NCBI GenBank assembly: GCA_002352945.1
Contig: DDHL01000034.1
Location: forward strand, 37,618-57,704
DNA: 20,087 bases
Reading direction: 5' to 3'
From: Campylobacteraceae bacterium UBA1877
GTDB taxonomy: Bacteria; Campylobacterota; Campylobacteria; Campylobacterales; Campylobacteraceae
This document shows positions 808 to 17,580 of this stretch, one piece after another. Made by a program: the position numbers and the translations under genes. The notes under the pieces are model-generated. The model ran no database searches and was not told where the DNA came from. It saw only the letters and a program-made list of their open reading frames with translations. How positions within the stretch are numbered: the stretch's first letter is position 1; each line of letters begins with the position of its first letter.

Positions 808-2733
808 TTAGCTTAAATGACAATCAAGCAAAACATCTTCTAACTCCCCCTCTTGCAGACAGCTTCCAAAGGTGCAAGCCCTTGTTTTAGACTCTTTTGA
901 GGCAACGATTAAAACAAGGGGGTTTTGGCTAGTGAGGCTATGGGCTTTTGATACTTGCTTTAGTGGTACATGTAAAACTATGAAATTTCCCAAAAGCGCG
1001 CTAAAAGTGCGCATCATCTCTGGATACGCATGGGGATATTTTATAATGGCTCCAGAAGCAAGATAGGCCATCTTTTGAACCTCACTTTTTAAACCCATAT
1101 TGCCCTCAATCAAAGCAAGTCTTAATAGCTGATACATCATGCAAGCTGCAGCGCTTTTGTAAGATGCGTCCTCCAAGGGTGCTTTTGCTTCAAAACCATC
1201 TTTGCTCAAATACCACGAACCGTTTCTATAAAAACTCTCTTTTGCCTCAAATGCAAGCTCTTTAGCAAGCAAAAGGTATTTATTTTGTGCGCTAAAAGAG
1301 TAAGCTGTAATTAAAGCTTCAACCAAAAAAGCGTAATCTTCAAGCAAACCTTTGACCTTCAAAGGAGAGTTTAAAACCATTTGATGGTACAAAACACCAT
1401 TTACATGTAAAGAGTTTATCAAGCTATCAAGCACTTTAAAACCCAAATTAAAATAACTCTTATCAACCCATTTTCCAGCCTCAAAAAGGCCAGTAACCAT
1501 AAGGGCATTCCATGATGTAAGAATTTTTGTATCTATAAAAGGAAATGGGGTTTTAGAGCGCAGTTTTTTTAAAATCTTTTTTGCCTCATCTAATCTTTTG
1601 GGATAAAAAAAGTTTTTACAGTATGGATTTGAAGTTTTGTTTTCAAAATTTCCATCTGGGGTAATGTTTAAATATTTTAAAATCTCATCAGCACTTTGAG
1701 TATCAAAACCAGACTCCAATAAAGCCTTTTTTGCTGCATCATATTTAAATACAAAATACTTCCCCTCCTCTCCCAAGCTATCAGCATCGCTTGCGCTCAT
1801 ATAGAGGTATTTAGTTAAAAATCGCTCATTCATTGCCTCAACTATCCCGCTAATCTTATCTTTTAAAAAAGAACTTGGACTCTTTGCGTAGAGTTTGCTA
1901 AGACTTACAAGCAGTTCTGCATTTGTATAGAGCATCTTTTCAAAATGGGGAATTTGCCACTGTTTATCAACACTGTATCTATAAAAACCCCCTTCAATTT
2001 GATCATAAATTCCACCAAGAGCCATAGCTTCAAGGCTCTCTTTAGCTATCTTAAATCCACCCTCATCATTCATTAAACTAGAGAGTTTAAGAAGGTTTGA
2101 AAATGTGCTTGCGTGGGGAAATTTTGGAGCACTTCCCACGCCCTTGTCAATCGCATCAAAACTCTCTTTAATATTTTTTATAAAATCTTTTAGCACACTT
2201 TCATCAAACTCTTTTGGGCTATCTTTGAAATTTTGCATCCTCATGATTGCTTGTGTGATACTAATAGCACTCTTTGCTAATTCATCAGCAGAATTTCTCT
2301 TTTTCTCGACAAAAAATTGCAGCAATTGCAAAAACCCCATCATGCCGTTTTTTGATTGTGCAGGCAGATATGTTCCTGCAAAAACAACCTTTTTATCTGG
2401 AAGCATCACAATACTAAGCGGCCATCCGCCTGCTCTTCTTTGAAGCAAGTAGTGTACATCTTGGTAATATTTATCAATGTGGGGCATCTCTTCGCGGTCA
2501 ACTTTGATGCTAATAAAATTTTCATTAAGCTCATTTGCAATAGCTTCATTTTCAAAGCTCTCTTTTTCCATTACATGGCACCAATGGCATGTGCTATATC
2601 CAATGGATAAGAATATGAGTTTATCCTCGTTTTGTGCTTTTAAAAAGGCTTCATCACTCCATGGAAACCACCAAACTGGATTCTTAGCATGTTGGAGCAG
2701 ATATGGTGAGTCTTCATCTTTTAATCTATTCAT
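808..2733 (-). CDS. DUF255 / YyaL-type thioredoxin-domain protein
   Basis: A 641-aa protein. Residues 1-160 form the DUF255 thioredoxin-like domain with the family signature ([14 protein letters not shown] near residue 9, then [14 protein letters not shown]). The CHWC redox-type motif is Cys49-Cys52. The remaining 480 residues resemble the alpha/alpha-barrel (N-acylglucosamine 2-epimerase-like) half of YyaL/SPATA20 proteins, including [25 protein letters not shown] and TSWNALM. The length is slightly short for the family (about 650-700 aa). No signal peptide is visible, so it is probably cytosolic. The biochemical role of this widespread family is not established. The ATG at 2733 is preceded by AAAGGA, which is the right arm of a 14-bp palindrome lying just after a TATAAT box. 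It is the first gene of a likely three-gene unit. Its 5' part carries dense TTTACATGTAAA-like sites (see repeats). Confidence 0.88.
1400..1411. repeat. TTTACATGTAAA palindrome, copy inside the DUF255 gene
   Basis: Exact copy within coding sequence, read in the gene frame as LHV (SLHVNG). Related cores TACATGTA occur at 967-974 (same gene, LHV again), 7374-7381 (kinase gene, IHV) and 15854-15861 (second kinase gene, ALHVG). Confidence 0.8.
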
Positions 2734-2741
2734 AAAAATCC

Positions 2742-2753
2742 TTTACATGTAAA
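2742..2753. repeat. TTTACATGTAAA palindrome, copy in a promoter/leader
   Basis: Exact copy, extended to CTTTACATGTAAAG (2741-2754). It lies directly between the TATAAT box and the start codon of the DUF255 gene, and its right arm supplies the AAAGGA ribosome site. Confidence 0.8.
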
Positions 2754-2754
2754 G

Positions 2755-2760
2755 ATTATA
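2755..2760 (-). promoter_or_regulatory. -10 box (TATAAT) of the DUF255 gene
   Basis: TATAAT on the minus strand, about 22 nt before the start codon. There is no TTGACA-like -35, which is normal for Campylobacterota sigma-70 promoters. The predicted start of transcription falls inside the palindrome 2741-2754, so that element covers +1 and the ribosome site. Confidence 0.55.
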
Positions 2761-2828
2761 GGATTAAATGAGAAAGATTTATTAATGGGATAAAAACCAA
2801 TCTTTTTAATGAAGAAATATCTAAGATT

Positions 2829-2972
2829 TTAACTGCTCTTTTTTGGTTTGCAAAGATACTTTTTTATCATTGATTGGGCTTTACACTTTTTGCAAGTAAA
2901 GGGTGGGTTCTTTTGAAGAGTAGCTTTAAAATTTTTTCGCTCCTCTTTATCCATTTTGCAAAATGTTTTCAC
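2829..2972 (-). CDS. Small 47-aa CxxC protein (uncharacterised)
   Basis: A short reading frame of 47 residues with a GTG start at 2972. AAGGGG lies 5 nt upstream and overlaps the stop region of the helicase gene, which ends only 9 nt earlier, so it looks translationally coupled to it. An in-frame ATG at 2954 (residue 7) is the fallback start. The protein is very basic. It contains PPFTCKKCKAQS (Cys27-x2-Cys30), a third Cys at 41 (YLCKPKK) and one more at 5, so it could be a minimal zinc knuckle. I do not recognise a named family. Good ribosome site, a compact gene junction and a protein-like cysteine pattern argue that it is real, but size makes this uncertain. Confidence 0.6.
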   Translation of the reverse strand: MKTFCKMDKEERKNFKATLQKNPPFTCKKCKAQSMIKKYLCKPKKSS

Positions 2973-2981
2973 ACAAACCCC

Positions 2982-5009
2982 TTAGCTAATCAAGCCAGCT
3001 TCAACCAAAAATGGAGAGTGGATGTAGTTAATCTTTTTGATTTTATCGTATTTTGCAAAAGAAAGATAGAGCCTATTTTTTGCCCTCGTTGCTGCAACAT
3101 AAAAGAGCCTTCGCTCCTCTTCTAAACTTCCACCCATGCTCATAAGTTTTCGATTCGGAAACCTTCCATCCATCAAATCTATAACATACACATCATCAAA
3201 TTCCAACCCCTTGCTTGCATGAACGCTCAATAAATTTACACCCTCTCCTTCGCTCATTTCGCTGCTTCCAAGGGTTAGTGCATTTAAAAATCGCTCAGAT
3301 GAGTTGTAATTGTATGATAAATCTCGCAGCAACATGCCTTTTCTTGCAATGCGCTCTCTTGCCTCATGACGGGCTTTTTCATCCACTGAGCCATCTTTTA
3401 AAGTAGCTCTTTTAGTTGATAAAATCTGCACAACTCTTTCATAAATTTTTGAATTTAGGGCGTATTCTACAAGCGTTGTTGGCCTTTTAATACGCCTTGT
3501 TTCTTTGATATAAAGATAAAAGTCATACAAAAAACGCGCCCCTTCATCGGTTAATTTTGAAAGTTTTAAAATTGGATTTGATAAAAAGGATTCTTCAAAT
3601 CCAAGCTTATAAAATCTAGCAACAGAGCCAACTTCATAATAGTCATCAAATAGTCCAAGCTGCCTATTGGTTGCGCGTGTTTGATAGGGATTTACATCAT
3701 CTCTTGGATCAAAAAAGCCTTTGTGTATATCTTTATCTCCTAATATATAGAGTCCATCAAAAAGCTCTTTTGAGAGTGCTGGACCAATGCCTTTTGCATA
3801 CTCAAAAAGGTGGATAAAAGCCATCATATCCTTTGGATTTACAACAACACTTAATAGATCAATAAGCGCTTTAACCTCCTTTGCATCAAAAAAGCTTATA
3901 CCCCCTTTTCTTTTGCAAGGTATGCCAACTTCACGTAAACTAGCCTCAATCCCATCCGCACTTGAATTGTTTCTAAAAATTACTGCAATGTTATGATAAG
4001 CTGTATTTGAAGTGCGAATAAGAGAAGCTATAGCTTGATACTGCGCAAAGAGTTCACTATATATGAGCAATTTTGGAGGCTCAAAATTACCAGTTCTAGT
4101 TACTTCAAGTTTTTTTGGATAGAGCCTTGGATTTTTTTCAATAACTCGGTTTGCAAGGGAGAGGATTTTAGATGAGGAGCGGTAATTTTTTGTAAGCGTA
4201 AAAACTTTTGCATCTGGATACCTTGTGCTAAATGAACCAATAATATTGATATTTGCCCCATTAAATGCGTAAATACTCTGATCATAATCCCCAACACAAA
4301 AAAGACTTTTACATGTAAAAGCATCAACCAAAGAGCCTTGCAAAGTATTGGTATCTTGATACTCATCTACCAAAATCTCTTTAAAATTTATTGGGGCACC
4401 CTTTATGAGTTGCTGGCGCATAAGTAGAAGCAAATCGTTAAAATCCACATATCCAAAACGCCTTTTTTGCTCGCTAAATTCTCTTAAAATATCTTCATAA
4501 ATATCAAAATAGACCCCATGGTCGCTGTTGCTCTCTTTGAGCCATTGACTAAAACTTTGGTTCTCATTTGTATTTTGATACAAAGAGTATAAATCGTACA
4601 AATAGTTTGCCTGATAAGGCTTAATGGGAGAGTCTATGTGATCAAAGCGCCGTTTGCCGTGGATGGTTTTAAGAAGTATTTTTAACTCTTTTGGCTGCTT
4701 TAAGACAATATTTTTACCAAGCCTTTTTAAAAGGCGGTAACTTACTGCATGAAAGGTCCCAGATTCAATTTTTAAAGCTACATCTTTTCCAAAAAATTTT
4801 CCAACTCTCTCAACCATTTCACTAGCAGCTTTGTTGGTAAAAGTAAGCAATAAAATATGCTCAGGCTTTACTTTCTTACTAAGCAAATAGGCAATTCTAG
4901 CTACTATAGTAGAGGTCTTTCCGGTACCAGCACTAGCAATAACAAGATTGTATCCAAAAGGGGCCGTTGCAGCCGCACGTTGTTCTTCGTTTAAGTGAGA
5001 AAGGGGCAT
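2982..5009 (-). CDS. UvrD/Rep/PcrA-family ATP-dependent DNA helicase
   Basis: A 675-aa superfamily 1A helicase with every core motif in order. These are the Q-motif region LNEEQRAAA (6-14), Walker A ASAGTGKT (25-32, Lys31), LTFTNKAA (55-62), Walker B DEYQD (215-219), GDYDQSIYAFNGA (240-252), LTKNYRSS (272-279), VHASKGLEFDDV near the C-terminus, and the motif VI-like YVAATRAKNRLYLSF. It unwinds DNA 3'-5' in repair or replication restart. It is slightly shorter than UvrD (about 720 aa), and the tail typical of UvrD/PcrA is missing. I leave the symbol blank because Rep, PcrA and UvrD cannot be separated here. The ATG at 5009 has AAAAGG 5 nt upstream, with a TATAAT box at 5044-5039. The 47-aa CxxC gene follows at once. 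Confidence 0.93.
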   Translation of the reverse strand: MPLSHLNEEQRAAATAPFGYNLVIASAGTGKTSTIVARIAYLLSKKVKPEHILLLTFTNKAASEMVERVGKFFGKDVALKIESGTFHAVSYRLLKRLGKNIVLKQPKELKILLKTIHGKRRFDHIDSPIKPYQANYLYDLYSLYQNTNENQSFSQWLKESNSDHGVYFDIYEDILREFSEQKRRFGYVDFNDLLLLMRQQLIKGAPINFKEILVDEYQDTNTLQGSLVDAFTCKSLFCVGDYDQSIYAFNGANINIIGSFSTRYPDAKVFTLTKNYRSSSKILSLANRVIEKNPRLYPKKLEVTRTGNFEPPKLLIYSELFAQYQAIASLIRTSNTAYHNIAVIFRNNSSADGIEASLREVGIPCKRKGGISFFDAKEVKALIDLLSVVVNPKDMMAFIHLFEYAKGIGPALSKELFDGLYILGDKDIHKGFFDPRDDVNPYQTRATNRQLGLFDDYYEVGSVARFYKLGFEESFLSNPILKLSKLTDEGARFLYDFYLYIKETRRIKRPTTLVEYALNSKIYERVVQILSTKRATLKDGSVDEKARHEARERIARKGMLLRDLSYNYNSSERFLNALTLGSSEMSEGEGVNLLSVHASKGLEFDDVYVIDLMDGRFPNRKLMSMGGSLEEERRLFYVAATRAKNRLYLSFAKYDKIKKINYIHSPFLVEAGLIS
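4308..4319. repeat. TTTACATGTAAA palindrome, copy inside the helicase gene
   Basis: Exact copy, extended by one pair to TTTTACATGTAAAA. It is read in the gene frame as FTCK (AFTCKS, helicase residues 230-235). Confidence 0.8.
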
Positions 5010-5038
5010 AAAAACCTTTTAGGAGATATTGAAGGCTA

Positions 5039-5044
5039 ATTATA
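5039..5044 (-). promoter_or_regulatory. -10 box (TATAAT) of the helicase gene
   Basis: TATAAT preceded by TG-rich TTTTTG (extended -10-like) on the minus strand, about 30 nt before the helicase ATG. It lies in a 189-bp divergent, very AT-rich intergenic region. Confidence 0.5.
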
Positions 5045-5111
5045 CAAAAATAGAGTTAAGAAGCCTTTATGAATAAAAGTATCCAAAACAATAAAAAATA
5101 GGTATGGAAAA

Positions 5112-5138
5112 TATGTATAATTTGTGTTAAAATACATA
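5112..5138 (+). promoter_or_regulatory. Promoter region of the regulator-kinase cassette, with an inverted repeat
   Basis: TATAAT at 5116-5121 is a good -10. It overlaps the left arm of a 7-bp inverted repeat, TATGTAT (5112-5118) and ATACATA (5132-5138), that spans the expected start of transcription. A TATTAC at 5147-5152 matches the direct repeats found before the GGDEF/EAL gene. This would give a leader of about 70 nt before the TTG start. Operator function is inference. Confidence 0.4.
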
Positions 5139-5198
5139 AATATAAATATTACTATAAATAACTCAATAAATGTTAAATTATGAAAGAAGGTTTTTGGT

Positions 5199-5888
5199 TT
5201 GAATTTGAACTATTTAAAAAATATCCATCTACTCATTGTAGAAGATGATGAGGTTGCTGCTGATTTTTTAGCAAGCTCCCTTGAAGATATTTTTAAAAAA
5301 ATCTATATCAAAAATGATGGCGCAAGTGCTTTTGAATTTATTGAAAATAATAAAATCGATGCTCTTATTACAGATTTGGCAATGCCCAATATGCAAGGTA
5401 TAACTTTAATTAAAAAACTAAGGGAGAATGAAAAAAATAAAGGCAATAAAACATTACCAATCATTGTTATTAGCGGAAGAAAAGAGAGTGATGAATTAGT
5501 AGAAATTGTGCGCTATAATCTCATTGACTATATTGTCAAACCCTTTACATTCAAGCGCCTTTATGAAATGCTTGAAAGATTGAGCAAATCCCTCATTGAA
5601 AATAATAGAAGAGACTTTTACATTGATAATGCAAGGATTTATGATCCAACAACAAAGAGTATTAAATTTGAAAATAAAACCATCCCTTTAACTTCTTTGG
5701 AGGCTCATTTATTAGAGTTATTACTAGAAAACAGAGGAACACTTCTTCCAAAATCAACCATAATGGAGCAAATTTATCCAAGTGAGATTAATGATTCAGC
5801 ATTTCGCAATCTTTTAGTGCGGCTTCGCAAAAAAGTCGGAAAAGAAAATATTTTAACAAAAAGGGATTTGGGGCTTTTGCTCAAATGA
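5199..5888 (+). CDS. OmpR-family response regulator
   Basis: A 229-aa two-domain regulator. The receiver (about 9-125) has the acidic pair Asp16/Asp17, phospho-acceptor Asp59 (LITDLAMPNMQG), Ser92 in VISGRK and Lys114 in IVKPF. A winged-helix trans_reg_C domain (about 147-228) follows, with LTSLEAHLLELLLENRG and NLLVRLRKKVG. The last strand ends DLGLLLK rather than the usual GxGY, a small deviation. The TTG start is supported by AAGAAGG 8 nt upstream; the ATG at 5180 is in another frame. Its stop overlaps the kinase ATG (ATGA), so the two are translationally coupled and almost certainly partners. It is the first gene of a plus-strand cassette in a mostly minus-strand neighbourhood. Confidence 0.88.
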   Translation: MNLNYLKNIHLLIVEDDEVAADFLASSLEDIFKKIYIKNDGASAFEFIENNKIDALITDLAMPNMQGITLIKKLRENEKNKGNKTLPIIVISGRKESDELVEIVRYNLIDYIVKPFTFKRLYEMLERLSKSLIENNRRDFYIDNARIYDPTTKSIKFENKTIPLTSLEAHLLELLLENRGTLLPKSTIMEQIYPSEINDSAFRNLLVRLRKKVGKENILTKRDLGLLLK

Positions 5889-7738
5889 AAATTGGTTTTC
5901 TTTTTCTTTTTCTTTTAACTCTTCTTGATGCAAAAACACTCACCATTGATGAAAACTTTACGAAACAAAGCAACATTGGCTACGGTAGTTACACTTTAAC
6001 TTTTTTTGACGATTTTAACACAATCGACAAAAAAAGTTTTAAACCAATCAAAAAACCCAATATTGGCTATCAGGTTGGAAAATATATTTGGACTAAAACT
6101 AAAATTCATAATGCAACATCAAAAACACAAAAAATAGTAGCCTACCATCCTCGCCCTGGAACTGATTGCTTTAGTATCTATATGTTTAAAAATGAAAAAA
6201 TTTTTAAAGTCTATCACATGGGCGATTCAAAACCATTTAGCAATAGACCTCTCAAAAGTCGCCAAAGTGGAATTAGTTTTCAGATTAATCCAAATGAAAC
6301 AATCACACTATATACAATGGCATCTAATAAGACAACGCTCATTGCTGAAACAGTTATAGCTAAAGCTAACACATATCTTTTTGATGAAATAGTCACAGCC
6401 ATTACAACATCCTTTTTGAGTGCAATTGTGTTAATAATCATGATTTTTTCTGGAATTCTTTTATTTCATTTTAATAAGCTTTCATCAATCATTTTTCTTT
6501 TGCACATTTTTTTAACCCAAACATTTTATATTAGCTACAATGGATACATAATCTATCTCTCTGAAGGGTTTTTGACCTCTTTGAGTGAATTTTTTGTCTT
6601 GCAAGGCGCAATTATTGCAATGATTTGTATCTTGCTGTTTGATCTTTTCTTTTTTGATATAAAAAAGCACTCTTTTGTTGCCTATAAAGTTGCAATATTT
6701 TACTTAATACTACAAATAATCTTTGCAATAAGTACAATATATCCTAATTCGCTTTTAGGGCAAATGATAGCTCCATATGCATCTTACATGATAAATTTAA
6801 TCCTTGTAACAGCTTACATCTTTTTAATTTTACTTTTAAGAGCAAAAATCCCATATGGGCGCTACTATGTTAGTGCTAGATTTTTTCACTATACAGGAAT
6901 TTTTATCTATATAATGGCAATTTTAGGCAAGATAAAAGAGAATTTTTTTACCATGCATATTGGAATTATTGGCACCATTTTAGAGGGTATGATTGCAACA
7001 TTTGTCTTTTATAAAATAATAAAAGACAAATTAAAAGAGGCAAATAGAACCAAAGAACTCTTAAAAAAGCATGCAAGGTTTTTATCAACAGGAAAAACCC
7101 TAGCTACAATTATCCACCAGTGGAAAGCTCCACTAAATAGATTAGGCACTATCACAATTTACCTGCAATCACTTCTTTTAAAACCTAAAATTCCCCATGA
7201 AGCCTTATCAAATTCAATTAATCACTTACAAAATGCCATATCAATTATGGATAATACAATCACATCTTTTTATGACTTTTATAAAAAAGACTCCAAGCCT
7301 AACACCTTTAATGTCCACAATAAAATCGAAAGCATACTAGATATTTTAAAGCCACAAGTTGATAATTTTCATATACATGTAGAAAATAAAACCAACCCCC
7401 AAATAACTCTTTTTTCAAGAGCGGATATTTTTGGACACACACTCATGATAATTTTACAAAATGCAATCAACTCCCTTAAAAACTGTGATCTTCAAAGAAG
7501 AGTAACTATTAGTTCAACCATAGAGAACGATTTTTTAATTATCAATGTAAAAGATAATGGCACAGGATTTAAAAAGGAGATTATAGATAATTTTCCAAAC
7601 CATATTTCTCAAAGTAAAAAAGGTCTTGGAATTGGTCTTGGAATTGCACACTATTTGGTAACAAAAGAGTTAAAAGGAAGATTAATCCTTAGCAATCTTC
7701 CCAAAGGGGCTTTAGTTACGATAAAACTCAATAAGTAG
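5885..7738 (+). CDS. 7TMR-DISM sensor histidine kinase
   Basis: A 617-aa inner-membrane kinase. Residues 1-16 are a signal peptide (MKIGFLFLFLLTLLDA). Residues 17-160 form a beta-rich extracytoplasmic domain of the 7TMR-DISMED2 type (VGKYIWTKTKIHN). About seven hydrophobic segments lie between 168 and 380. The H-box TIIHQWKAPLNRL (His411), N-box ILQNAINSL (Asn526), VKDNGTG (Asp557) and GLGIGLGIA (580-588) are all intact, so it should phosphorylate the OmpR-type regulator encoded just before it. DISMED2 domains are thought to bind carbohydrate-like ligands, but the signal here is unknown. A TACATGTA core lies inside the gene at 7374-7381. The coding sequence is very AT-rich, particularly across the membrane segments. 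Confidence 0.9.
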   Translation: MKIGFLFLFLLTLLDAKTLTIDENFTKQSNIGYGSYTLTFFDDFNTIDKKSFKPIKKPNIGYQVGKYIWTKTKIHNATSKTQKIVAYHPRPGTDCFSIYMFKNEKIFKVYHMGDSKPFSNRPLKSRQSGISFQINPNETITLYTMASNKTTLIAETVIAKANTYLFDEIVTAITTSFLSAIVLIIMIFSGILLFHFNKLSSIIFLLHIFLTQTFYISYNGYIIYLSEGFLTSLSEFFVLQGAIIAMICILLFDLFFFDIKKHSFVAYKVAIFYLILQIIFAISTIYPNSLLGQMIAPYASYMINLILVTAYIFLILLLRAKIPYGRYYVSARFFHYTGIFIYIMAILGKIKENFFTMHIGIIGTILEGMIATFVFYKIIKDKLKEANRTKELLKKHARFLSTGKTLATIIHQWKAPLNRLGTITIYLQSLLLKPKIPHEALSNSINHLQNAISIMDNTITSFYDFYKKDSKPNTFNVHNKIESILDILKPQVDNFHIHVENKTNPQITLFSRADIFGHTLMIILQNAINSLKNCDLQRRVTISSTIENDFLIINVKDNGTGFKKEIIDNFPNHISQSKKGLGIGLGIAHYLVTKELKGRLILSNLPKGALVTIKLNK

Positions 7739-7747
7739 TTCTTATAA

Positions 7748-7780
7748 TATTACATTAGTATTACTTTTATATTATATAAT
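7748..7780 (+). promoter_or_regulatory. Promoter of the GGDEF/EAL gene with 11-bp-spaced direct repeats
   Basis: TATAAT at 7775-7780 is the -10. In the -35 zone, TATTAC occurs at 7748-7753 and again at 7759-7764, exactly 11 bp apart, the one-helical-turn spacing used by OmpR-family regulators. The OmpR-type regulator encoded two genes upstream is an obvious candidate binder. The predicted transcript would begin near 7787. Confidence 0.45.
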
Positions 7781-7806
7781 GTATAAAAAAATTCATGAGG
7801 TTTCAG

Positions 7807-9981: not shown

Positions 9982-10007
9982 TTCCCTTTACATGTAAAGG
10001 GAACTAA
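9978..10007. terminator. 30-bp perfect palindrome, bidirectional terminator between convergent genes
   Basis: Left half TTAGTTCCCTTTACA followed by its exact reverse complement. It includes the stop codon of the GGDEF/EAL gene (TAG, 9979-9981) and ends 8 bp before the end of the molybdopterin subunit gene. It can fold with a CATG loop and a 13-bp stem on either strand. There is no clear U-tract, only short runs (TTTTA on one flank), so termination efficiency is uncertain. The centre is the recurrent TTTACATGTAAA. Confidence 0.65.
9987..9998. repeat. TTTACATGTAAA palindrome, copy at the centre of a convergent terminator
   Basis: Exact copy forming the core of the 30-bp palindrome 9978-10007 between two converging genes. 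Confidence 0.85.
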
Positions 10008-10014
10008 TGGAAGG

Positions 10015-13000
10015 CTAAATGGCCTCAATTCGCACAGGAAGTGCTTGTCTAGCATTTGAGCCTATTACAAAATCGCCCAAGTTTGCCAACTCTCTAGAGG
10101 TATCCATTAAGCCTAAATTGTTAATATTTACTCCGCTTTTTCGCAGTGGACTTGCTTGAACTTTTTGTCCATTTACCCACACTTCTAAAGCTCTCTCTCC
10201 TTCTCTGCCACCGCCATGTTCAATTGCCAACGCTCCTGGATAAACCCCTTGTCGGAATCGAAGCCTTCCTTCTACACTTCCTCCTGGCGATATTAGTCGG
10301 ACTTTTTGTCCATGACTGAAACCTTTTTCTTTTGCGCTTTTAGGATTAATATCAATATATGTTGTTGGGCGAATCTGCCTTATCATTTCGCTGGAAGCAG
10401 TAGCTTGCGAAAGAACATTTGATTTATAACTAAATGCCTCAAAAGGATAACTGCTTTTTGGATAAAGCTCTTCAAGCAAAGCACCTTTTGATTCGCGAGC
10501 TTTTACAAAAGTTGGAACTCCACTGAAGCGCTCGCCGGTTAATGAGTGCCTTGTTTTAGCTAGTGGCTCAAAATAGATCTGTATTGGCTTTTTATATGGG
10601 TGGGCAAGCTTACCATCTTTATAACCTTTTTCTTTAGCCTCAAACCTTCCGCCTCTTGCCATAACGTAAGCTGTTTTTCTCCAATTATCTCCACAAATCT
10701 CTTTTAAGATTGGAACATATGATTCAAGACCAGCTAACTTAATCTCCTCATCATCACAATCTGGCACCCCTCCAGCATCTAGGGCAATATTTTCAAATGC
10801 TCGAATGTAAAAGTCTTGCGGCCTGTCAAAAGAGTACATCTTTCCATCATTGCCCTTAATAGCATTTTTACCAAAACCTGGAAGCTTTAACGCTTTTCCA
10901 AGCTCAATAATAAAGCTATCCATACTTATTGGCTCTCCATTGGCAAACTTAGCTTGAGGAGCTTCAACAGTTGGGTATCGCAAAGTGTTTGTTTTAGTTT
11001 GATAACCTGCCCATGGAGCAACAACTCCCCATGTTTCATACATTACTGAATCTGGAATTATATAATCAGCATAGCGGCTTGTTTCATTTATAAATGGATC
11101 CACACTAATAAAAAGAGGAACTGCCTTTTTTGGATCTTTTAAAAGCTCAATCAGATGCTTTGAGCCGCTTTGTCCATAAACAAAGTTAGCATTTAGTCCA
11201 ATAAGTGCGCTCATCTTATAAGGATACTTTTTTGCACTATTAAAAATATACTCTGATTCAAGAGCATTTGTAATTGGATACCACATATCCCATGCTGGAT
11301 ATGGATTTTTACCTTCTGCTACTTTTTTTGCGTATTCAGTCGTTTTTTCATAAGCAATTCGTGTTCTATCGATTCTATAACCCTTTGTTTTTACCTTGCC
11401 AGGATATGCTAAAAGGTTATATTTTGCTCCGTTAAAATCTTTATACCTTCCGCCACCAGCGCTCATTCCGCCTTGGTAGTTTAAATTTCCAACCATCGCT
11501 CCTAACATCATGATGGCATAGGTTGTATAAAATCCAGTAGTATGCATTGTTCCGCCATGGCAGTCAACGGCTGATTTTCGTCCATGGGATGTAAACTCGT
11601 AAGCTACTTCTTTAATCTTCTCTTTTAAAACACCGCTTTCATTAGCATACTCTTCTAGAGTATATTTCATAGCCGACTCTTTTAAAAGTGTCATAGCACT
11701 TTTTACTTGATAGGCTTTGCCATCGAGTTCAACTGTGCGGTCCACAAAAAGCTCAGCCTCTTTTGAGTTGCTTGCTAGAACCAATTCACCGCTTTTAGAA
11801 TCTAGTACTAAAGGCTTTTTATCAAGAGTTAAAATTTCACCCTCTTTTTCACCAGATTGGATTACAAGATGGGTTGCATTGGTCCATGAAGCTTCACCAG
11901 CTGCCTTACGCGCCTCCTCTGATGGGATGCGAAGATAGGATTCATTAAAGAGGTTATCTTCGATAATAACTCGTAAAATCCCCATAACAAAAGCCAAGTC
12001 ACCGCCTGGTTTAATTGGAATCCATTCACTTCTATCTCCAACTGCTTGAGAATCAGCATTTGTTAGCATAGGAGCCACAGTGACACATTTTAGATTTTTA
12101 TGAGTTCTTGCCTTTGCTAAAAGCTTTGCTTGGCGTTTAAATGGGTTACCAGCTTGGGCTGGGGCTGTACCAATTGTAAGTAGGTATTCACAATGCTCAA
12201 AATCTGGCTTTAAGTGTGGATACTTTTTAATATCGCCTAAATACACCGCCTCGCCAGCGCGCATTGAAAGACCACAAATAGATGTGTGACCTGAATAGTT
12301 TTGAGTACCAAAGGCTTTCACAAAACGGTGGATTATATACTGCTTTCGTCCATCATCACCGGTTCCAAGAACGCATAAACCATTGGCTTTTGGTCCGCAT
12401 TTTGTATCATTTGGATCAATTGGAGTTTTTAAATCGCGAATTGAAGCCAACCCTTCTACATGCCCTTCTCCAAAAAGATCTCCACCATTTACTATCTCTT
12501 TTAAAAGCTGCTCTGGAGAAATTGTCTGCCACTTATCTTCACCCCGCTTTCCAACCCGCTTTAATGGAGCAAGAACGCGACCTTTATCATAAAGCCTATC
12601 AAAGGTAACATTTCCTCTTGCACAAGCAGTTGAGCGGTATTTGTAAGCTTCTGGTGAATCTTTGCCCAAAAGTTTAAAGCTCTCTTTTAAAGGTGTATTA
12701 TATGGTATCCAAGGATCGGTTGAGAGAGGATTGTATGGATTCCCGCTAGCTTTTACAACACTCTGTGAAGCATTATCAATTTTTACCCTCATACCACAAT
12801 GGCTTGTGCAACCATTACATACACCCATTCGCAATGAAAAATCACTATTTTTATCAAACGATGTGGCTAGTACACCCTCGGTTGATTGGGCATTTGAATA
12901 GATTGGGTCTTTTGGAGCCTTTCCGTTTCTGCTCATTGTAACTGCAGTGCCAAGCATCTTATTGTAACCAGCAACTGAAGCGGTAGCTGCAGCTAATGAT

Positions 13001-13035
13001 GTTCCTATGAGAAAATTTCGTCTACTAGCTTGCAT
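10015..13035 (-). CDS. ttrA: Tetrathionate-reductase-type molybdopterin catalytic subunit (TtrA-like)
   Basis: A 1006-aa DMSO-reductase-superfamily enzyme with a twin-arginine signal (SRRNFLIGTSL), so it is exported folded to the periplasm. A [4Fe-4S] site is formed by Cys73, Cys76, Cys80 and, after a long gap, Cys138 (STACARGN). Between them GNPYNPLSTDPWIPYNTPL is typical of the TtrA branch. Cys254 in HTSICGLSMRAGEA is the expected molybdenum ligand. The length (about 1000 aa) fits TtrA rather than PsrA/PhsA (about 760-800) or ArrA (about 850). It would reduce tetrathionate or a related sulfur oxyanion using two bis-PGD-bound electrons. It is the last gene of the B-C-A set; its ATG overlaps the C gene by 11 bp with AAGGAG upstream. 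Selenate- or polythionate-type substrates cannot be excluded from sequence. Confidence 0.75.
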   Translation of the reverse strand: MQASRRNFLIGTSLAAATASVAGYNKMLGTAVTMSRNGKAPKDPIYSNAQSTEGVLATSFDKNSDFSLRMGVCNGCTSHCGMRVKIDNASQSVVKASGNPYNPLSTDPWIPYNTPLKESFKLLGKDSPEAYKYRSTACARGNVTFDRLYDKGRVLAPLKRVGKRGEDKWQTISPEQLLKEIVNGGDLFGEGHVEGLASIRDLKTPIDPNDTKCGPKANGLCVLGTGDDGRKQYIIHRFVKAFGTQNYSGHTSICGLSMRAGEAVYLGDIKKYPHLKPDFEHCEYLLTIGTAPAQAGNPFKRQAKLLAKARTHKNLKCVTVAPMLTNADSQAVGDRSEWIPIKPGGDLAFVMGILRVIIEDNLFNESYLRIPSEEARKAAGEASWTNATHLVIQSGEKEGEILTLDKKPLVLDSKSGELVLASNSKEAELFVDRTVELDGKAYQVKSAMTLLKESAMKYTLEEYANESGVLKEKIKEVAYEFTSHGRKSAVDCHGGTMHTTGFYTTYAIMMLGAMVGNLNYQGGMSAGGGRYKDFNGAKYNLLAYPGKVKTKGYRIDRTRIAYEKTTEYAKKVAEGKNPYPAWDMWYPITNALESEYIFNSAKKYPYKMSALIGLNANFVYGQSGSKHLIELLKDPKKAVPLFISVDPFINETSRYADYIIPDSVMYETWGVVAPWAGYQTKTNTLRYPTVEAPQAKFANGEPISMDSFIIELGKALKLPGFGKNAIKGNDGKMYSFDRPQDFYIRAFENIALDAGGVPDCDDEEIKLAGLESYVPILKEICGDNWRKTAYVMARGGRFEAKEKGYKDGKLAHPYKKPIQIYFEPLAKTRHSLTGERFSGVPTFVKARESKGALLEELYPKSSYPFEAFSYKSNVLSQATASSEMIRQIRPTTYIDINPKSAKEKGFSHGQKVRLISPGGSVEGRLRFRQGVYPGALAIEHGGGREGERALEVWVNGQKVQASPLRKSGVNINNLGLMDTSRELANLGDFVIGSNARQALPVRIEAI

Positions 13036-14197
13036 GTTTTACTCCTTGATAATTAGCTTCCATCTCTTCATCCCATGGGAAAAGAGCCATTACAATCGCC
13101 AAAAGGGCAATAAATGCTGCCCAGTTTGATGCCACAGAGATGATGCTGTTTTGTCCAAATAGTTCTGGAATATAATGTGTAAATCCAGGCATCGATCGAG
13201 GGATTTGCTGACCCCCAATAACTGTATTCCATCGAAATAGCCAAACACCAACTGCACTAATAACTCCCATCAAAAAGACAATCCAAAAAGAGTGGCGCAT
13301 TTTGCTAAAACCAACTACCATTGGAACGATAAGACATAAACCATACTCTATATACACAACTGTTTCAAAATGAAGTGAGAAAAACTGCGCAAGCAACTCC
13401 TTGCCGGCCATTCCAAAAGGCATTGCAAAGCTAAGCCAAAGAGCTCTTACAACAAGGTCAATGACAATAAACCAAGCTAAAAGTTTTGCAAGAGAAGCCA
13501 TCATTTGCATATCAACTTTTTTTGAAATTGAAAAGAATTTTTGAAAAATAGGCAAAAGCACAATTAAAAGCCCGGTTCCAGAAACCATAGCAGAGGCTAA
13601 AAATAGAATCGGCATCAATGGTGTATGCCACAATGTATTTGCATGGACTGCACCTAAAATATAGCCAGTGTATCCATGAACGCTAAGGGCTAGTGGAATT
13701 CCAATTGATCCAAGAATAAAACCCCATTTATGATCAATCTCATCATTTTTAGCATCAAGTTCTGTGCGCCCAAAAGCCAAGCAAGTATAGATTTTTTTCT
13801 TAATTGGCCCGCTTGTTGGAATGCGCTTTACAAAATAGGCTCTATAAAGCACTAAAGCTTCGATTAAAATTAAGATTGGATAGGCAATAAGCAAGAGCAC
13901 GCCCCATTTCATTGGAGATGTTCCAAAATTCTCCCAGCCATACAAAAAGAAATTTATCAAACGTCCAGGCTGTTTTAAATCATCAATCAAGTTTAGTGGC
14001 GCAACTGCCAATAAAACAAAGGCCAATAGAAGTGAAAATCCCGCAATTGGCTTAAACTGTTTAAATCCAAAAACATGGGCAAAGCTTGAGATAATAAATG
14101 CTGCTGCTGAACTTCCAGTAAACCAAAAGTAGTTTGGCACATCAATTCCCCACGCTCTCATTGGAGAAATTGCCGCAATTGTACTCATCCACTCCAT
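13025..14197 (-). CDS. ttrC: NrfD/PsrC-type quinone-interacting membrane subunit (TtrC-like)
   Basis: A 390-aa polytopic protein with about nine hydrophobic segments, beginning PNYFWFTGSSAAAFIISS, the usual first helix of the NrfD family. LSVHGYTGYILG and FLASAMVSGTGLL are further typical segments. It anchors the complex in the inner membrane and exchanges electrons with menaquinol, passing them to the Fe-S subunit; no haem ligands are expected. The ATG at 14197 overlaps the B-subunit stop (TGATG), and GGAGG lies 7 nt before it, inside the B gene; a start ten codons earlier has no such site. The stop lies 11 bp inside the A gene. The three subunits are therefore translated as a coupled unit. 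Confidence 0.82.
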   Translation of the reverse strand: MEWMSTIAAISPMRAWGIDVPNYFWFTGSSAAAFIISSFAHVFGFKQFKPIAGFSLLLAFVLLAVAPLNLIDDLKQPGRLINFFLYGWENFGTSPMKWGVLLLIAYPILILIEALVLYRAYFVKRIPTSGPIKKKIYTCLAFGRTELDAKNDEIDHKWGFILGSIGIPLALSVHGYTGYILGAVHANTLWHTPLMPILFLASAMVSGTGLLIVLLPIFQKFFSISKKVDMQMMASLAKLLAWFIVIDLVVRALWLSFAMPFGMAGKELLAQFFSLHFETVVYIEYGLCLIVPMVVGFSKMRHSFWIVFLMGVISAVGVWLFRWNTVIGGQQIPRSMPGFTHYIPELFGQNSIISVASNWAAFIALLAIVMALFPWDEEMEANYQGVKHAS

Positions 14198-14988
14198 CAC
14201 ACTACCTCCTTGGGCAATTTTGCCCACTCTTTATCCAATTCATTTAACTCTTTACGAACCACATCATCTAATAAAGGTGTTGCTTCATGAACTGCTTCTA
14301 AGCGATTATCTAAACCTATATAAAAAACTTGAGGTCTATTGCCTTGATATGGTTTTAAAACAGTAGTTGGGAAATTTGCAAGCAGTTTTGAAACTTCAGA
14401 TTGTGGATCATTTATATCACCAAAAACCCTAGCTCCCCCAACACAGGTTTCTACACATGCAGGCAAGAGCCCGTCTGCAAGTCTGTGGGCACAAAAGGTG
14501 CACTTATCAGCAACCTTTGTCTCTTTGTTGAAAAATCGCTTATCATAAGGGCATGCACTCAAGCAGTATCCGCATCCCCAGCAGATATCGCCATCAACCA
14601 CGACTATCCCATCTTCACGCTTAAATGTAGCTCCGGTTGGACACACACTTACACATGAGGGTTTTTCGCAATGGTTGCAAAGCTGAGGAACATAGCCTTT
14701 GCGAACATTTGGGAAAGTTCCAAGCTCAAACTCGTTTACAAAAGTTCGATATTGGTCTTTTGGAACACTGTTTTCGACTTTGCAGGCTGCACTGCAAGCT
14801 TGACATCCAACGCATTGGCGCAGGTCAATGACCATTACATAATGGGCATTTTTATCGCCAATATATTTTGGATCTTTAGCATCTCGTCCTGGATTTTTTA
14901 GTGAAATTGCATGAGCGCTTGTTAAACCAAGAACGCTTGCAACGCCACCTTGCTTTAAAAACCAGCGACGTGAACGATCTGTTGCCAT
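14197..14988 (-). CDS. ttrB: Four-cluster [4Fe-4S] electron-transfer subunit (TtrB/PsrB-like)
   Basis: A 263-aa ferredoxin-type subunit with a twin-arginine signal (SRRWFLKQGG). Sixteen cysteines fall into four groups: 59/62/65/69 (CVGCQACSAAC), 104/107/112/116, 136/139/142/146 (CWGCGYCLSAC) and 163/166/178/182. This is the pattern of DmsB/PsrB/TtrB subunits binding four [4Fe-4S] clusters. It relays electrons from the NrfD-type subunit to the molybdenum subunit in the periplasm. The ATG at 14988 has a near-perfect AAAGGAGGA ribosome site, which may be partly masked by an upstream complement (see 14996-15037). It is separated from the upstream kinase gene by 52 bp and is the first gene of the B-C-A trio. 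Confidence 0.85.
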   Translation of the reverse strand: MATDRSRRWFLKQGGVASVLGLTSAHAISLKNPGRDAKDPKYIGDKNAHYVMVIDLRQCVGCQACSAACKVENSVPKDQYRTFVNEFELGTFPNVRKGYVPQLCNHCEKPSCVSVCPTGATFKREDGIVVVDGDICWGCGYCLSACPYDKRFFNKETKVADKCTFCAHRLADGLLPACVETCVGGARVFGDINDPQSEVSKLLANFPTTVLKPYQGNRPQVFYIGLDNRLEAVHEATPLLDDVVRKELNELDKEWAKLPKEVV

Positions 14989-14995
14989 CGGAATC

Positions 14996-15037
14996 CTCCT
15001 TTAAGAGTTTTCCGAAAGTTTATCAAGCAAAAAGGAG
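14996..15037 (-). promoter_or_regulatory. Inverted repeat able to cover the ttrB ribosome site
   Basis: On the minus strand CTCCTTT (15037-15031) is an exact complement of AAAGGAG (15002-14996), the strong ribosome site of the B-subunit gene, with 28 nt between. A hairpin would hide the site. It is only 7 bp and could be chance. No TATAAT is seen in this 52-bp gap, so the trio is probably read from the upstream promoter. Confidence 0.25.
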
Positions 15038-15040
15038 AAA

Positions 15041-16750
15041 CTAGGGAGTAGGTAGCAAGATTGTAAAACAAGCACCTTTTTGGTCATTTTTTACAAGCAA
15101 TTGCCCAAAAGAGTGTTTTTCAATGATGATTTTACTCATATAAAGTCCAATTCCTGTACCGCTACTTGCATGTTTAGTACTCACATATGGTTCAAAAATT
15201 TTCTCAATTGGCTCAACCTTAACTCCGCCACCATTGTCGCAAATTGTAATAATAATTTTATCACTCTCTTGTGTAACATCAATTTCAATTTTGGGATTTA
15301 AAACCTTTCTTTCAAGCAAAACATCCTTTGCATTTGCCAATAGATTTAAAAAAACTTGGGCTATCTCATTTGCATATCCATAGGTGAAAATTTCATCTTT
15401 ACATGTAAACTCGCAATCGATATTGTTATTTTTTAAAGCCGAATCCATAATCGAAATAGCATTTTTTACAGATTGGCAAACGTCAAAAGAGGCCTTTTGT
15501 TTATCTGAAGCAAAAAAGTTCCTAAAATCATCAATCGTATTGGACATAAAAGCAATCAGCCCTTCTGATTCGCGAATCTTTTCATGAAGGGTTTTGCTAG
15601 TAAGCTTACCCCTTTCATAAAGAAGCTCAATCCCAATAAGCAGTGTTCCAAGCTGGGTTAAAGGCTGGCGCCATTGGTGTGCAATATTGCCAATCATTTC
15701 ACCCATGCTAGCAAGCTTGCTTTGGTGAATAAGCATTTGCTCTTTTTCGCGGGCAACTGCCTCGTTTGCCATCCGCTTTTGAATCTCGCTTACAACCCGT
15801 TTTTCAAGTGTTGCATTAAGCTCTTCAATACGCCTAATTAAAACCTCAAAGCCTACATGTAAAGCAACAAAAACAACAACACCAAGAATCATGACGATAA
15901 TAACACTCTCAAAGATTGCATCATTTAAACGCTGTTTTGAAGCAGTGATGTCTTGAAAAAAAAGAACCTTAAAGCTTTTGTTATTTACCGTATCTTGTTT
16001 TATTTGATGCGTTGCATAGAGGAAATTATTATAATTAAAAAGAGATTTTAATGATTTTTGCTCATCCAAAGATGCTTTAAAAAGATTTTCAATAGAGCTT
16101 CCTTCTAGACTAATTGGCCTGTTTTTATCTACAACCATCATCGCCTCAAGCCCTGTAAGCTGGGAAATTTCGGCAAGAAAAAATTTTGGATCAATCTCAA
16201 AAACCAAATAGCCACCTTTTTTCCATGGAACGATAACCCGGTACCACAATTTTGTATCCATCCAAAAACCATGCTTTTTTTCACTCAAAGCTATTTTTGC
16301 TGGAGCATGGCTTCCTAAGTAAGCAAGCCTCTTGCCTTCTGGCGTATAAAATGCCATCGATGAAAGATAAGGATTTTCTCTTTTTAAAACATTCCATCGA
16401 AATAAAGAGAGCTCAACTAAACGCTCTTTATTTTGATTCACTAATGCTTTTGCAATACCAAATGAGTTTAAATTTGCAAATCCACGATTTCGATAAAAAT
16501 CCTCAGTGCGTTTTAAAGTCTCAGTATAAACCGAATGGATCCGATCTACATAAAATTTTTGAGCCTCTTGGGTGAAATTTTTAGTATCCAAATAGCGCAG
16601 ATAGACAAAAACAAAAGAGAGTAGGAAAAAAAGAGCTAAAACTAAAATAATAGTCTTGGTTTTAGTTGAGAGCTTCTCGTGCAGGATTTCTAATTTTTCA
16701 ATCAATACTATATCCGATTCCGTAATGGTTTTTAATAACTTCTTTGCCAA
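15041..16750 (-). CDS. Sensor histidine kinase of the reductase operon
   Basis: About 569 aa from a TTG at 16750, or 554 aa from a TTG at 16705; neither has a strong ribosome site. The longer form overlaps the regulator gene by 53 bp, so the shorter is plausible. The first membrane helix is about 33-53, an extracytoplasmic Cache-like sensor about 54-275, and the second helix about 281-305. A coiled coil (306-345) leads to the H-box GNIAHQWRQPLTQLG (His358), N-box LLANAKD (Asn473), CDNGGG (504-509) and GTGIGL (531-536). All catalytic elements are intact. It differs from enterobacterial TtrS, whose sensor is a periplasmic-binding-protein-like domain. Position suggests it senses a sulfur oxyanion or redox signal for the adjacent reductase. 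It holds one exact TTTACATGTAAA (15398-15409) and one core (15854-15861). Confidence 0.86.
   Translation of the reverse strand: MAKKLLKTITESDIVLIEKLEILHEKLSTKTKTIILVLALFFLLSFVFVYLRYLDTKNFTQEAQKFYVDRIHSVYTETLKRTEDFYRNRGFANLNSFGIAKALVNQNKERLVELSLFRWNVLKRENPYLSSMAFYTPEGKRLAYLGSHAPAKIALSEKKHGFWMDTKLWYRVIVPWKKGGYLVFEIDPKFFLAEISQLTGLEAMMVVDKNRPISLEGSSIENLFKASLDEQKSLKSLFNYNNFLYATHQIKQDTVNNKSFKVLFFQDITASKQRLNDAIFESVIIVMILGVVVFVALHVGFEVLIRRIEELNATLEKRVVSEIQKRMANEAVAREKEQMLIHQSKLASMGEMIGNIAHQWRQPLTQLGTLLIGIELLYERGKLTSKTLHEKIRESEGLIAFMSNTIDDFRNFFASDKQKASFDVCQSVKNAISIMDSALKNNNIDCEFTCKDEIFTYGYANEIAQVFLNLLANAKDVLLERKVLNPKIEIDVTQESDKIIITICDNGGGVKVEPIEKIFEPYVSTKHASSGTGIGLYMSKIIIEKHSFGQLLVKNDQKGACFTILLPTP
15398..15409. 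repeat. TTTACATGTAAA palindrome, copy inside the second kinase gene
   Basis: Exact copy in coding sequence, read as FTCK (CEFTCKDE, kinase residues 447-454), the same reading as the helicase copy. Confidence 0.8.
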
Positions 16751-17381
16751 TTTTTTTACGCAAACTTTTAATTACAGCTTTTAATGCCTCTTTTCCAGGC
16801 GCATCATAACCCCATAAGTGATCTTCAATCGCCTCAAAGGTTACTGTTTTTCCACGACACGCTATAAAATACTCTAACAATCGACTCTCTTGAAGGGTTA
16901 GCGGAATCTTTTGATCTTTACATATAAGGCATTTTTGAGATGGATTGTAAGAGATATCTGAAGTTAAATGCACTTCAAGAGCATCTTCTACTAACTCAAG
17001 AGCACAAACCCGCAAAGCTTCCATGAGCATATTTTTATCAAATGGCTTTGTAAGATACTTTGTAATTTTTTGCTCAACCGCACGCCACAATCTTTGCTCA
17101 TCCCTATGGGCACTTAAGACAATTACTGGAGTTTTTCGATCGCTTTTTCTAATGTATGAGATAACATCCAAACCATCAACATGAGGCATGCAAATATCGA
17201 CCATTACAACATCGGGACGATACTCATCATAAATTTCGCAAGCCTCCTTCCCATCTTTTGCAACATATACTTTTTCAAAAAATAGCTCTAAAATCTGTGT
17301 TACATTCTCTCGGATTCCATTTTCATCTTCTGCATAGAGCACACTTTTATTCTCTAACACTCCTAAGACATTTTTATCCAT
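16698..17381 (-). CDS. OmpR-family response regulator of the reductase operon
   Basis: A 227-aa regulator. The receiver has the DE acidic pair in YAEDENG, phospho-acceptor Asp62 (MVDICMPHVDG), Ser in VLSAH and Lys112 (LTKPF). The winged-helix output domain has LTLQESRLLEYFIACRGK, a recognition helix ALKAVIKSLRKKIG and the normal GIGY hairpin end. An ATG at 17387 also exists, but AAGG abuts it; the ATG at 17381 has the same AAGG at a proper 6-nt distance, so I use 17381. The gene overlaps the upstream 68-aa gene by 8 bp and runs into the kinase gene, so these are coupled. The reductase trio downstream is the likely target. In enterobacteria TtrR is a NarL/FixJ-type regulator, so this switch is of a different family. 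Confidence 0.88.
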   Translation of the reverse strand: MDKNVLGVLENKSVLYAEDENGIRENVTQILELFFEKVYVAKDGKEACEIYDEYRPDVVMVDICMPHVDGLDVISYIRKSDRKTPVIVLSAHRDEQRLWRAVEQKITKYLTKPFDKNMLMEALRVCALELVEDALEVHLTSDISYNPSQKCLICKDQKIPLTLQESRLLEYFIACRGKTVTFEAIEDHLWGYDAPGKEALKAVIKSLRKKIGKEVIKNHYGIGYSID

Positions 17382-17580
17382 CAACATCCTTATCTTTTAA
17401 AAGCCTTTTCATCTTTCGCTCCATTCGTTTTTCAAAAGCCTCATTTGATGGTGAATCACTACTTGAAAAGAGGGCTTTGCCATATAATATACAACCCTTA
17501 TCTCCAGGATTGCAAGCTCGTTTTAAAATCGCACACTCATCATCAACAAACTTTGGACAACTCCAACCACCTTTGCTCAC
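17374..17580 (-). CDS. 68-aa cysteine-rich protein (uncharacterised) in the reductase operon
   Basis: The start is GTG at 17580 with AGGAG 5 nt upstream, 2 bp after the epimerase stop. The stop overlaps the regulator start by 8 bp. The N-terminal half has Cys8, Cys16, Cys23 and Cys30 (SCPKFVDDECA, RACNPGDKGCILYG), spacing C-x7-C-x6-C-x6-C, suited to binding a metal or Fe-S cluster. The C-terminal half is a charged, Lys/Arg-rich helix (EKRMERKMKRLLKDK). It has no signal peptide, so it is cytosolic. I do not recognise a named family. Good ribosome site, head-to-tail overlap on both sides and regular cysteine spacing make it very likely a true gene. A role in redox sensing or metal handling is only inference. 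Confidence 0.75.
   Translation of the reverse strand: MSKGGWSCPKFVDDECAILKRACNPGDKGCILYGKALFSSSDSPSNEAFEKRMERKMKRLLKDKDVDG

Follow-up and report, generated by a model that had tools for sequence, protein, structure and literature searches.

Highly iterated palindromes (HIPs) of cyanobacteria occur about once per 1 kb, and their relation to their methylases "remains a mystery" according to section 3.3 of a 2015 paper (PMC4390886, drawn on here and below in excerpt). In Campylobacter jejuni, according to the parts of two papers used here, uptake is reported to be limited to DNA that carries CtsM methylation at RAATTY (PMC8468864, PMC10046745), and a RAATTY enzyme of C. coli is given as 1,095 bp in the portion used of a third (PMC8627207). 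The present analysis concerns a strict palindromic core of 8 bp, TACATGTA, with the usual 12-bp form TTTACATGTAAA, which was noticed in a stretch of 20,087 nucleotides from Campylobacteraceae bacterium UBA1877; "the window" denotes this whole stretch. To the original prediction, made from the window, the analysis adds that the motif also occurs in the Sulfurospirillum family and, within a third family (f16), in a few genomes, that its copies are conserved in place, that its flanks are lineage-specific and that, in part of genus g31, it is linked to a methylase.

The window corresponds to G000:C36:37618-57704, where G000 is the source genome, a 1.94-Mb draft that is 82% complete (other genomes, genera and families carry handles of the same kind). 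Eight copies of TACATGTA were found in it, against 0.16 expected and a largest shuffle count of 2, while 100 dinucleotide shuffles gave no copy of TTTACATGTAAA, which occurs five times. Among the 8-bp palindromes of the window, TACATGTA was the most over-represented (8 vs 0.19, order-1 model). Six cores are in coding DNA of four genes (read as LHV three times, FTCK twice and IHV once), one is in a leader and one forms the middle of a hairpin flanked by convergent genes. The original prediction had listed five 12-mers and three further cores, all of which were recovered at the same positions (Table 1), and had judged the motif to lie far above chance, as the counts confirm. The settings it described (unrelated genes as LHV or FTCK, a leader, a convergent terminator) also agreed, with one core reading IHV.

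Over the whole of G000, TACATGTA was present 1031 times (reversed-word control, 17) and TTTACATGTAAA 559 times (control, 1). In 196 kb of this genome, window included, 107 cores were counted, where an order-2 model with the sites masked predicts about 2 for one strand and 4.0 for both, and 107 of the 115 ACATGT words fell within TACATGTA. As with HIPs, a short palindrome therefore lies far above Markov expectation genome-wide. The extended consensus of the 196-kb sample was CTTTACATGTAAAG; the preferred bases outward from the core are T, T, C and then non-A. With genes called simply as longest frames, the density of sites per kb was 0.40 in coding and 1.08 in non-coding DNA of G000, and 0.37-0.38 and 2.4-3.0, respectively, in the Sulfurospirillum samples.

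An interspersed repeat (repetitive extragenic palindrome or miniature inverted-repeat transposable element) or an insertion was considered and rejected: the flanks are unconserved, and by about 6 bases out from the core the information content is down to background. A by-product of protein coding was likewise rejected, the word being denser outside genes and the site codons changing once the word is lost.

In one sampled stretch of G000 (L098, 500-1340), letters are seemingly repeated on either side of scaffold gaps (runs of N), probably an assembly artefact.

More than 100 cores were counted in 32 of 298 genomes from across the order, namely G000, all but one of the 28 genomes sampled from the Sulfurospirillum family (f20; 104-1727 cores in these 27) and four genomes of f16 (G318 with 848, G268 with 611, G247 with 608 and G337 with 221). 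The remaining 266 genomes had 0-99 cores. Named members of f20 include S. barnesii (G339), S. deleyianum (G213), S. oryzae (G300), S. arcachonense (G237) and S. diekertiae (G280); its only motif-poor genome was G187 (Sulfurospirillum sp. 1612), with 28 cores. Within the family of G000 (153 genomes), counts of TTTACATGTAAA were 0-2 in all 133 genomes of genera g2-g7, 122 and 338 in g12, 21 in g8, 0-42 in the 14 genomes of g10, 2 in g9 and 4 in g11. Counts of TTACATGTAA underrate genomes with other flanks (G318, G356 and G403 are poor by TTACATGTAA and rich by core), and the conclusions rest on the core. The genome-wide count of G000, far above the background model, and the presence of the motif in the Sulfurospirillum family and a few f16 genomes mean that neither outcome named beforehand as refuting the prediction, a count near expectation or confinement to the window, holds.

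The outer flanks are lineage-specific around a common core. The second base outside the core was T in 71-80% of the sites of G000, G330, G171, G213 and G348, whereas in G247 it was C in 53% (19 sites), and G318 had no clear preference (10 sites).

In 47 kb of G187, which has an NlaIII-like methylase, TCATGA was counted 38 times (18.7 expected) and ATCATGAT 10 times (2.6 expected), so this genome possibly has a different, weaker CATG-centred palindrome. Viral contigs among the matches listed mostly had a single CTTTACATGTAAAG, with clusters of 4 in 12.2 kb and of 3 in 5.4 kb; those with clusters are possibly phages or prophages of motif-bearing hosts.

Orthologous blocks at three places (uvrD, comEC and the locus of the methylase discussed below) served to follow the conservation of sites, with 8-mers as control. 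Between G330 and five genomes about 83% identical to it, 160 of 180 sites were intact (77-93% by pair; control 8-mers 25-30%): 45/52 in G171 (control 26%), 43/46 in G280 (25%), 20/26 in G387 (26%), 39/42 in G348 (30%) and 13/14 in G300 (30%). The corresponding values were 48/50 (61%) in G310 and, at greater distance, 13/17 (19%) in G339 and 25/34 (18%) in G213; since sites of G330 or G171 recur across these pairwise counts and the genomes are related, the counts are not independent, and the pooled values leave out G201 (3/4), G398 (1/2) and sites lacking full alignment. Site conservation is thus above background, as in HIPs, and the over-represented word is kept in place within genes and terminators, as are DNA uptake sequences (DUS) and uptake signal sequences (USS).

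One-step neighbours of the core were depleted, with 35 found against 62 expected in G330, where all four core positions were affected, and 46 against 66 in G000, where the third position was not (28 vs 24). This is as expected if near-misses are either removed or converted.

In the uvrD block, residues read from site codons of G330 were 93% identical to those of site-keeping G171 (66/71; 89% elsewhere) and G348 (63/68; 90% elsewhere). The identity was 80% in G260 (57/71; 90% elsewhere) and only 63% in site-less G225 (45/71; 88% elsewhere). The divergence of these residues where the word is lost shows that the pressure acts on the DNA word, even bending the protein. The palindrome is a genome-wide signal maintained at the DNA level.

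In G225, lost sites carried 0.35 mismatches per base against about 0.23 in the flanks, and ACATGT (16 vs 29 expected) and CATG (307 vs 454) were under-represented. Site loss in this genome was faster than passive decay, perhaps through back-adaptation of forced residues or active avoidance.

A search of 38 genomes for D12 methylases (PF02086) set apart one group that is present in many motif-dense genomes, its open frames measuring 321-337 aa. In 11 of the 17 genomes of genus g31, a D12 protein of 323-327 aa was encoded at one locus, between a gene for a 362 aa Tat-type protein and a cheY-like gene (G330, G310, G171, G280, G387, G348, G300 and G201) or beside the 362 aa Tat-type gene (G339, G213 and G398). 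In G260, G225, G290, G408 and G372 both flanks were kept and the D12 gene was absent, with no recognisable remnant at the locus; G320 had neither the D12 gene nor its 362 aa neighbour. When a tree was built from 25 kb in which the motif sites had been masked, genomes lacking the gene fell in three places, (G260,G225), (G408,G290) and (G320,G372), for which three losses are the simplest account. Named relatives of the enzyme, 51% identical to it, are annotated "Modification methylase NlaIII". NlaIII is specific for CATG, and CATG is the centre of the palindrome. The corresponding gene of G000 is at G000:C26:1395-2357 (-), near SDR and acnB genes, an order common to G152 and G151. Deep nodes of the D12 tree were weak, and only its shallow clades were used.

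The 11 genomes of g31 with the locus gene had core densities of 484-576 per Mb, and the six without it 42, 122, 243, 249, 323 and 500 per Mb (p = 0.002 by Mann-Whitney test, with genome sizes to the nearest 0.1 Mb). The clearest comparison is that of G260 and G225, the sister pair of methylase-bearing G348: relative to G330, G348 kept 39/42 sites, whereas G260 kept 14/43 (control 29%, the same level) and G225 0/42 (21%). The other genomes without the locus gene kept 14/30 (G372, control 13%), 26/51 (G290, 15%), 24/45 (G408, 15%) and 15/21 (G320, 17%), and the deeper comparison, 38/51 in G213 and G339 against 79/147 in G320, G372, G290 and G408, was weaker than the close one. Absence of the orphan NlaIII-family methylase is thus statistically linked, in part of g31, with fewer and less conserved sites.

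G290 and G408 have a different NlaIII-like enzyme, at a place common to both, and their motif is widened and looser. Variants at the outer core position (e.g., GACATGTA) were counted 27 times in G290 (4.9 expected) and 18 times in G408 (4.5 expected), against 12 in G330 (14.7 expected).

Ten neighbour proteins around nine methylase genes were scanned and the other neighbours judged by eye. The scan yielded one endonuclease, of AccI type and with its own methylase (G318), and no NlaIII-like endonuclease; a cognate endonuclease beside the methylase, as in a restriction-modification system, was therefore not found among the scanned neighbours. In G270 the neighbour is a methylase-like fragment. 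The AccI-type pair of G318 is a complete restriction-modification system directly adjoining the NlaIII-like methylase gene.

The original prediction had named an iterated palindrome, an uptake sequence and a methylase site as options; these were the right candidates, and its interpretation is supported in part. Most likely, an orphan N6-adenine methylase from the NlaIII (CATG) branch of the D12 enzymes targets TACATGTA, and the methylated word would most likely be read as "self" by the natural-transformation machinery. By analogy with CtsM and RAATTY of C. jejuni, we tentatively propose, at rather less than even confidence, a methylated self-DNA signal that may accumulate in the manner of uptake sequences.

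In such a scheme the orphan NlaIII-branch methylase would write TAC(m6A)TGTA, and the transformation machinery would recognise the methylated word as self during uptake. Preferential uptake and recombination of word-bearing DNA would then raise the copy number, since the signal is long, and restore lost copies by molecular drive, a process proposed for the uptake sequences of Neisseria and Haemophilus; loss of the writer would let the sites decay. A cycle of this kind would account for the high copy number, the repair of lost sites, the non-coding preference, the depletion of near-misses and the decay after writer loss. The fullest version, a palindromic, methylation-dependent uptake signal spread and repaired by molecular drive, with an NlaIII-branch writer, the transformation machinery of Sulfurospirillum and the G000 lineage as reader, and a thousand sites decaying once the writer is lost, is possible but is put forward with still lower confidence.

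Several observations weigh against this proposal. D12 enzymes of the modelled group (E up to 1e-25) were found in 24 of the 32 genomes above 100 cores and, as members of the wider group, in 90 of the remaining 266. The eight motif-rich genomes without one were G320, G237, G393, G268, G356, G372, G260 and G225, among which G320 (1201 cores), G237 (1124), G393 (887) and G268 (611, closed contig) are motif-dense; G268, G237, G372 and G260 gave no PF02086 match whatever. Conversely, G187 has a relative of the enzyme yet no motif, and the wider D12 group is represented in another 89 motif-poor genomes. The retention in G320 equals that of methylase-bearing G213 and G339 at similar distance, and G372, G290 and G408 retain 47-53% of their sites, far over their controls (13-15%). 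The plasmid-like second contig of G171 (39.9 kb), which also encodes a relative of the D12 methylase, bears the motif in a looser form, only 4 of its 14 cores having TT/AA flanks. Non-coding enrichment was slight in G268 (0.39 vs 0.28 per kb). As to the C. jejuni precedent, relatives from the wider D12 group, mostly of about 365-385 aa and so near the 1,095 bp of the C. coli RAATTY enzyme, were present in all 29 other sampled genomes of G000's family and are taken as putative CtsM from their size and family. ComEC (PF03772), the sole competence gene looked at, was present in 41 of 41 genomes tested, motif-losing G225 included, and so does not discriminate motif-rich from motif-poor genomes.

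Decay of sites in every genome lacking the methylase was only partly borne out: none were left in G225, G260 was at control level, G372, G290 and G408 kept about half, and G320 showed no decay. Given the motif-rich genomes without a D12 enzyme of this group and the motif-poor genomes with some member of the wider group, the enzyme is either a writer among several possible ones or a helper that matters yet can be replaced. As alternative writers, PF01555 methylases (17 of 38 genomes) and C5 methylases (PF00145; 12 of 19) were considered, and neither pattern matched that of the motif. The MT-A70 profile (PF05063) gave no match in 19 genomes, nor in control genomes, and was hence uninformative.

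It is also conceivable, though somewhat unlikely, that the palindrome is of the HIP kind, linked to a methylase and kept up by needs internal to the chromosome (repair, recombination, replication or strand discrimination) that have nothing to do with uptake, which would cover most of the same facts. The anatomy is alike, with a palindrome about once per 1.5-1.7 kb in the Sulfurospirillum and G000 samples, an orphan methylase, loss in single lineages and variant words (PMC4390886, as excerpted). Spacing between sites was also near random (coefficient of variation 0.87-1.05). The greater density of sites in non-coding DNA fits such a role poorly, being 6-8-fold in Sulfurospirillum and 2.7-fold in G000, but only 1.4-fold in G268. 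Moreover, Elhai's mismatch-repair model requires GmeC and the motif has no GC step, and these bacteria are not known to possess MutS/MutL.

A classical, methylation-independent uptake sequence, in which a surface or periplasmic DNA receptor recognises the palindrome itself, with the methylase in a minor role, is improbable. It would accommodate the motif-dense genomes without the methylase (G268, G237, G320 and G393), and the intergenic enrichment, terminator sites and lineage flanks resemble the dialects of uptake sequences. Retention nevertheless tracks the methylase locus (G260 and G225 vs G348) though ComEC is present in all three genomes, and known uptake sequences are not palindromes.

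The probability is lower again that the sites bind an abundant protein of the nucleoid or of chromosome organisation (ParB/KorB/Noc-like) and are retained through selection on chromosome structure. A long palindrome with graded outer positions would suit a dimeric binder, and the KorB operator is likewise a palindrome starting TTTA, but spacing is not even, some 1000-1700 sites per genome far exceed known Noc or SlmA numbers, and the tie to the methylase locus would be left unexplained.

A restriction-modification footprint, by which an ACATGT-type system purges ACATGT save where TACATGTA protects it, is very improbable: ACATGT outside the core is indeed depleted in several genomes (8 vs 29 in G000, 22 vs 43 in G330), but not in G290, G408 and G372, the neighbours in G330 are depleted at all four core positions rather than at the ACATGT ones alone, the neighbourhoods sampled around the methylases yielded no cognate endonuclease, and avoidance cannot make a 50-fold excess of the protected word.

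The copies in the window are collected in Table 1. At the FTCK site of the UvrD/PcrA-type helicase, the consensus in an eight-sequence alignment with Sulfurospirillum is FxSK. Three genes at 10015-14988 look by eye like a polysulfide/tetrathionate-type reductase set (molybdopterin subunit, NrfD-like membrane protein and 4Fe-4S protein), adjoined by a two-component system at 15041-17387.

Table 1. Copies of the palindrome in the window (positions from the first letter of the window)
Feature	Position	Strand	Start of core	Setting
core TACATGTA	967..974	.	967	coding, LHV, in gene 808-2733 (-), which we take to be DUF255/thioredoxin-domain-like
12-mer TTTACATGTAAA	1400..1411	.	1402	coding, LHV, in gene 808-2733 (-)
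12-mer (14-mer CTTTACATGTAAAG)	2742..2753	.	2744	leader, just upstream of gene 808-2733 (-)
12-mer	4308..4319	.	4310	coding, FTCK, in UvrD/PcrA-type helicase gene 2982-5009 (-)
core	7374..7381	.	7374	coding, IHV, in sensor-kinase-like gene 5885-7738 (+)
12-mer	9987..9998	.	9989	centre of perfect inverted repeat with 13-bp stem between convergent genes; terminator-like hairpin
12-mer	15398..15409	.	15400	coding, FTCK, in sensor-kinase-like gene 15041-16750 (-)
core	15854..15861	.	15854	coding, LHV, in sensor-kinase-like gene 15041-16750 (-)

No description of this word, nor of any highly iterated palindrome in Campylobacterota, was found in the open literature searched, which mostly excludes subscription papers; within that scope the original statement that none was known stands. 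The motif offers an independent HIP-like case outside the cyanobacterial phylum. It occurs in a family that includes named species, and the clean absence of the candidate writer gene from several lineages amounts to a natural experiment. If the signal is read in DNA uptake, it would explain the origin of such palindromes and represent self-recognition for gene exchange in a form that is methylated and accumulates. Should methylation-dependent uptake with molecular drive be the correct account, HIPs, self-marking of the CtsM type and uptake sequences would be united in one system.

Compared with NlaIII-family adenine methylases (CATG), the g31 enzyme is similar in sequence, at about 51% identity to proteins annotated as modification methylase NlaIII. 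It differs in occupying one fixed locus in 11 genomes and in that a partner endonuclease was not found beside the sampled genes, the AccI-type endonuclease of G318 having its own methylase. With the DUS of Neisseria and the USS of Haemophilus the motif shares hundreds to thousands of copies, residence in genes and terminators, and lineage dialects. Those sequences, however, are non-palindromic and read unmethylated by a receptor, whereas here a perfect palindrome is linked to a methylase, and for this reason it is not filed as a classical DUS.

The system resembles CtsM and RA(m6A)TTY of C. jejuni in that an orphan adenine methylase, apparently of the same D12 superfamily, would mark a palindrome. 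RAATTY, however, is a short, frequent word (one C. coli has 28,482 sites, as given in the portion used of PMC8627207) and need not accumulate, while the present word is longer and hugely over-represented. There is also a likeness to HIP1 (GCGATCGC) and the alternate HIPs of cyanobacteria, which, in the excerpt used, are palindromic, highly over-represented genome-wide, tied to orphan methylases, and lost or replaced in single lineages (PMC4390886). The motif described here differs from them in its phylum, its A+T-rich, CATG-centred word, its NlaIII-branch methylase, its strong non-coding enrichment in most genomes tested, and the existence of five genomes whose otherwise syntenic locus cleanly lacks the methylase gene.

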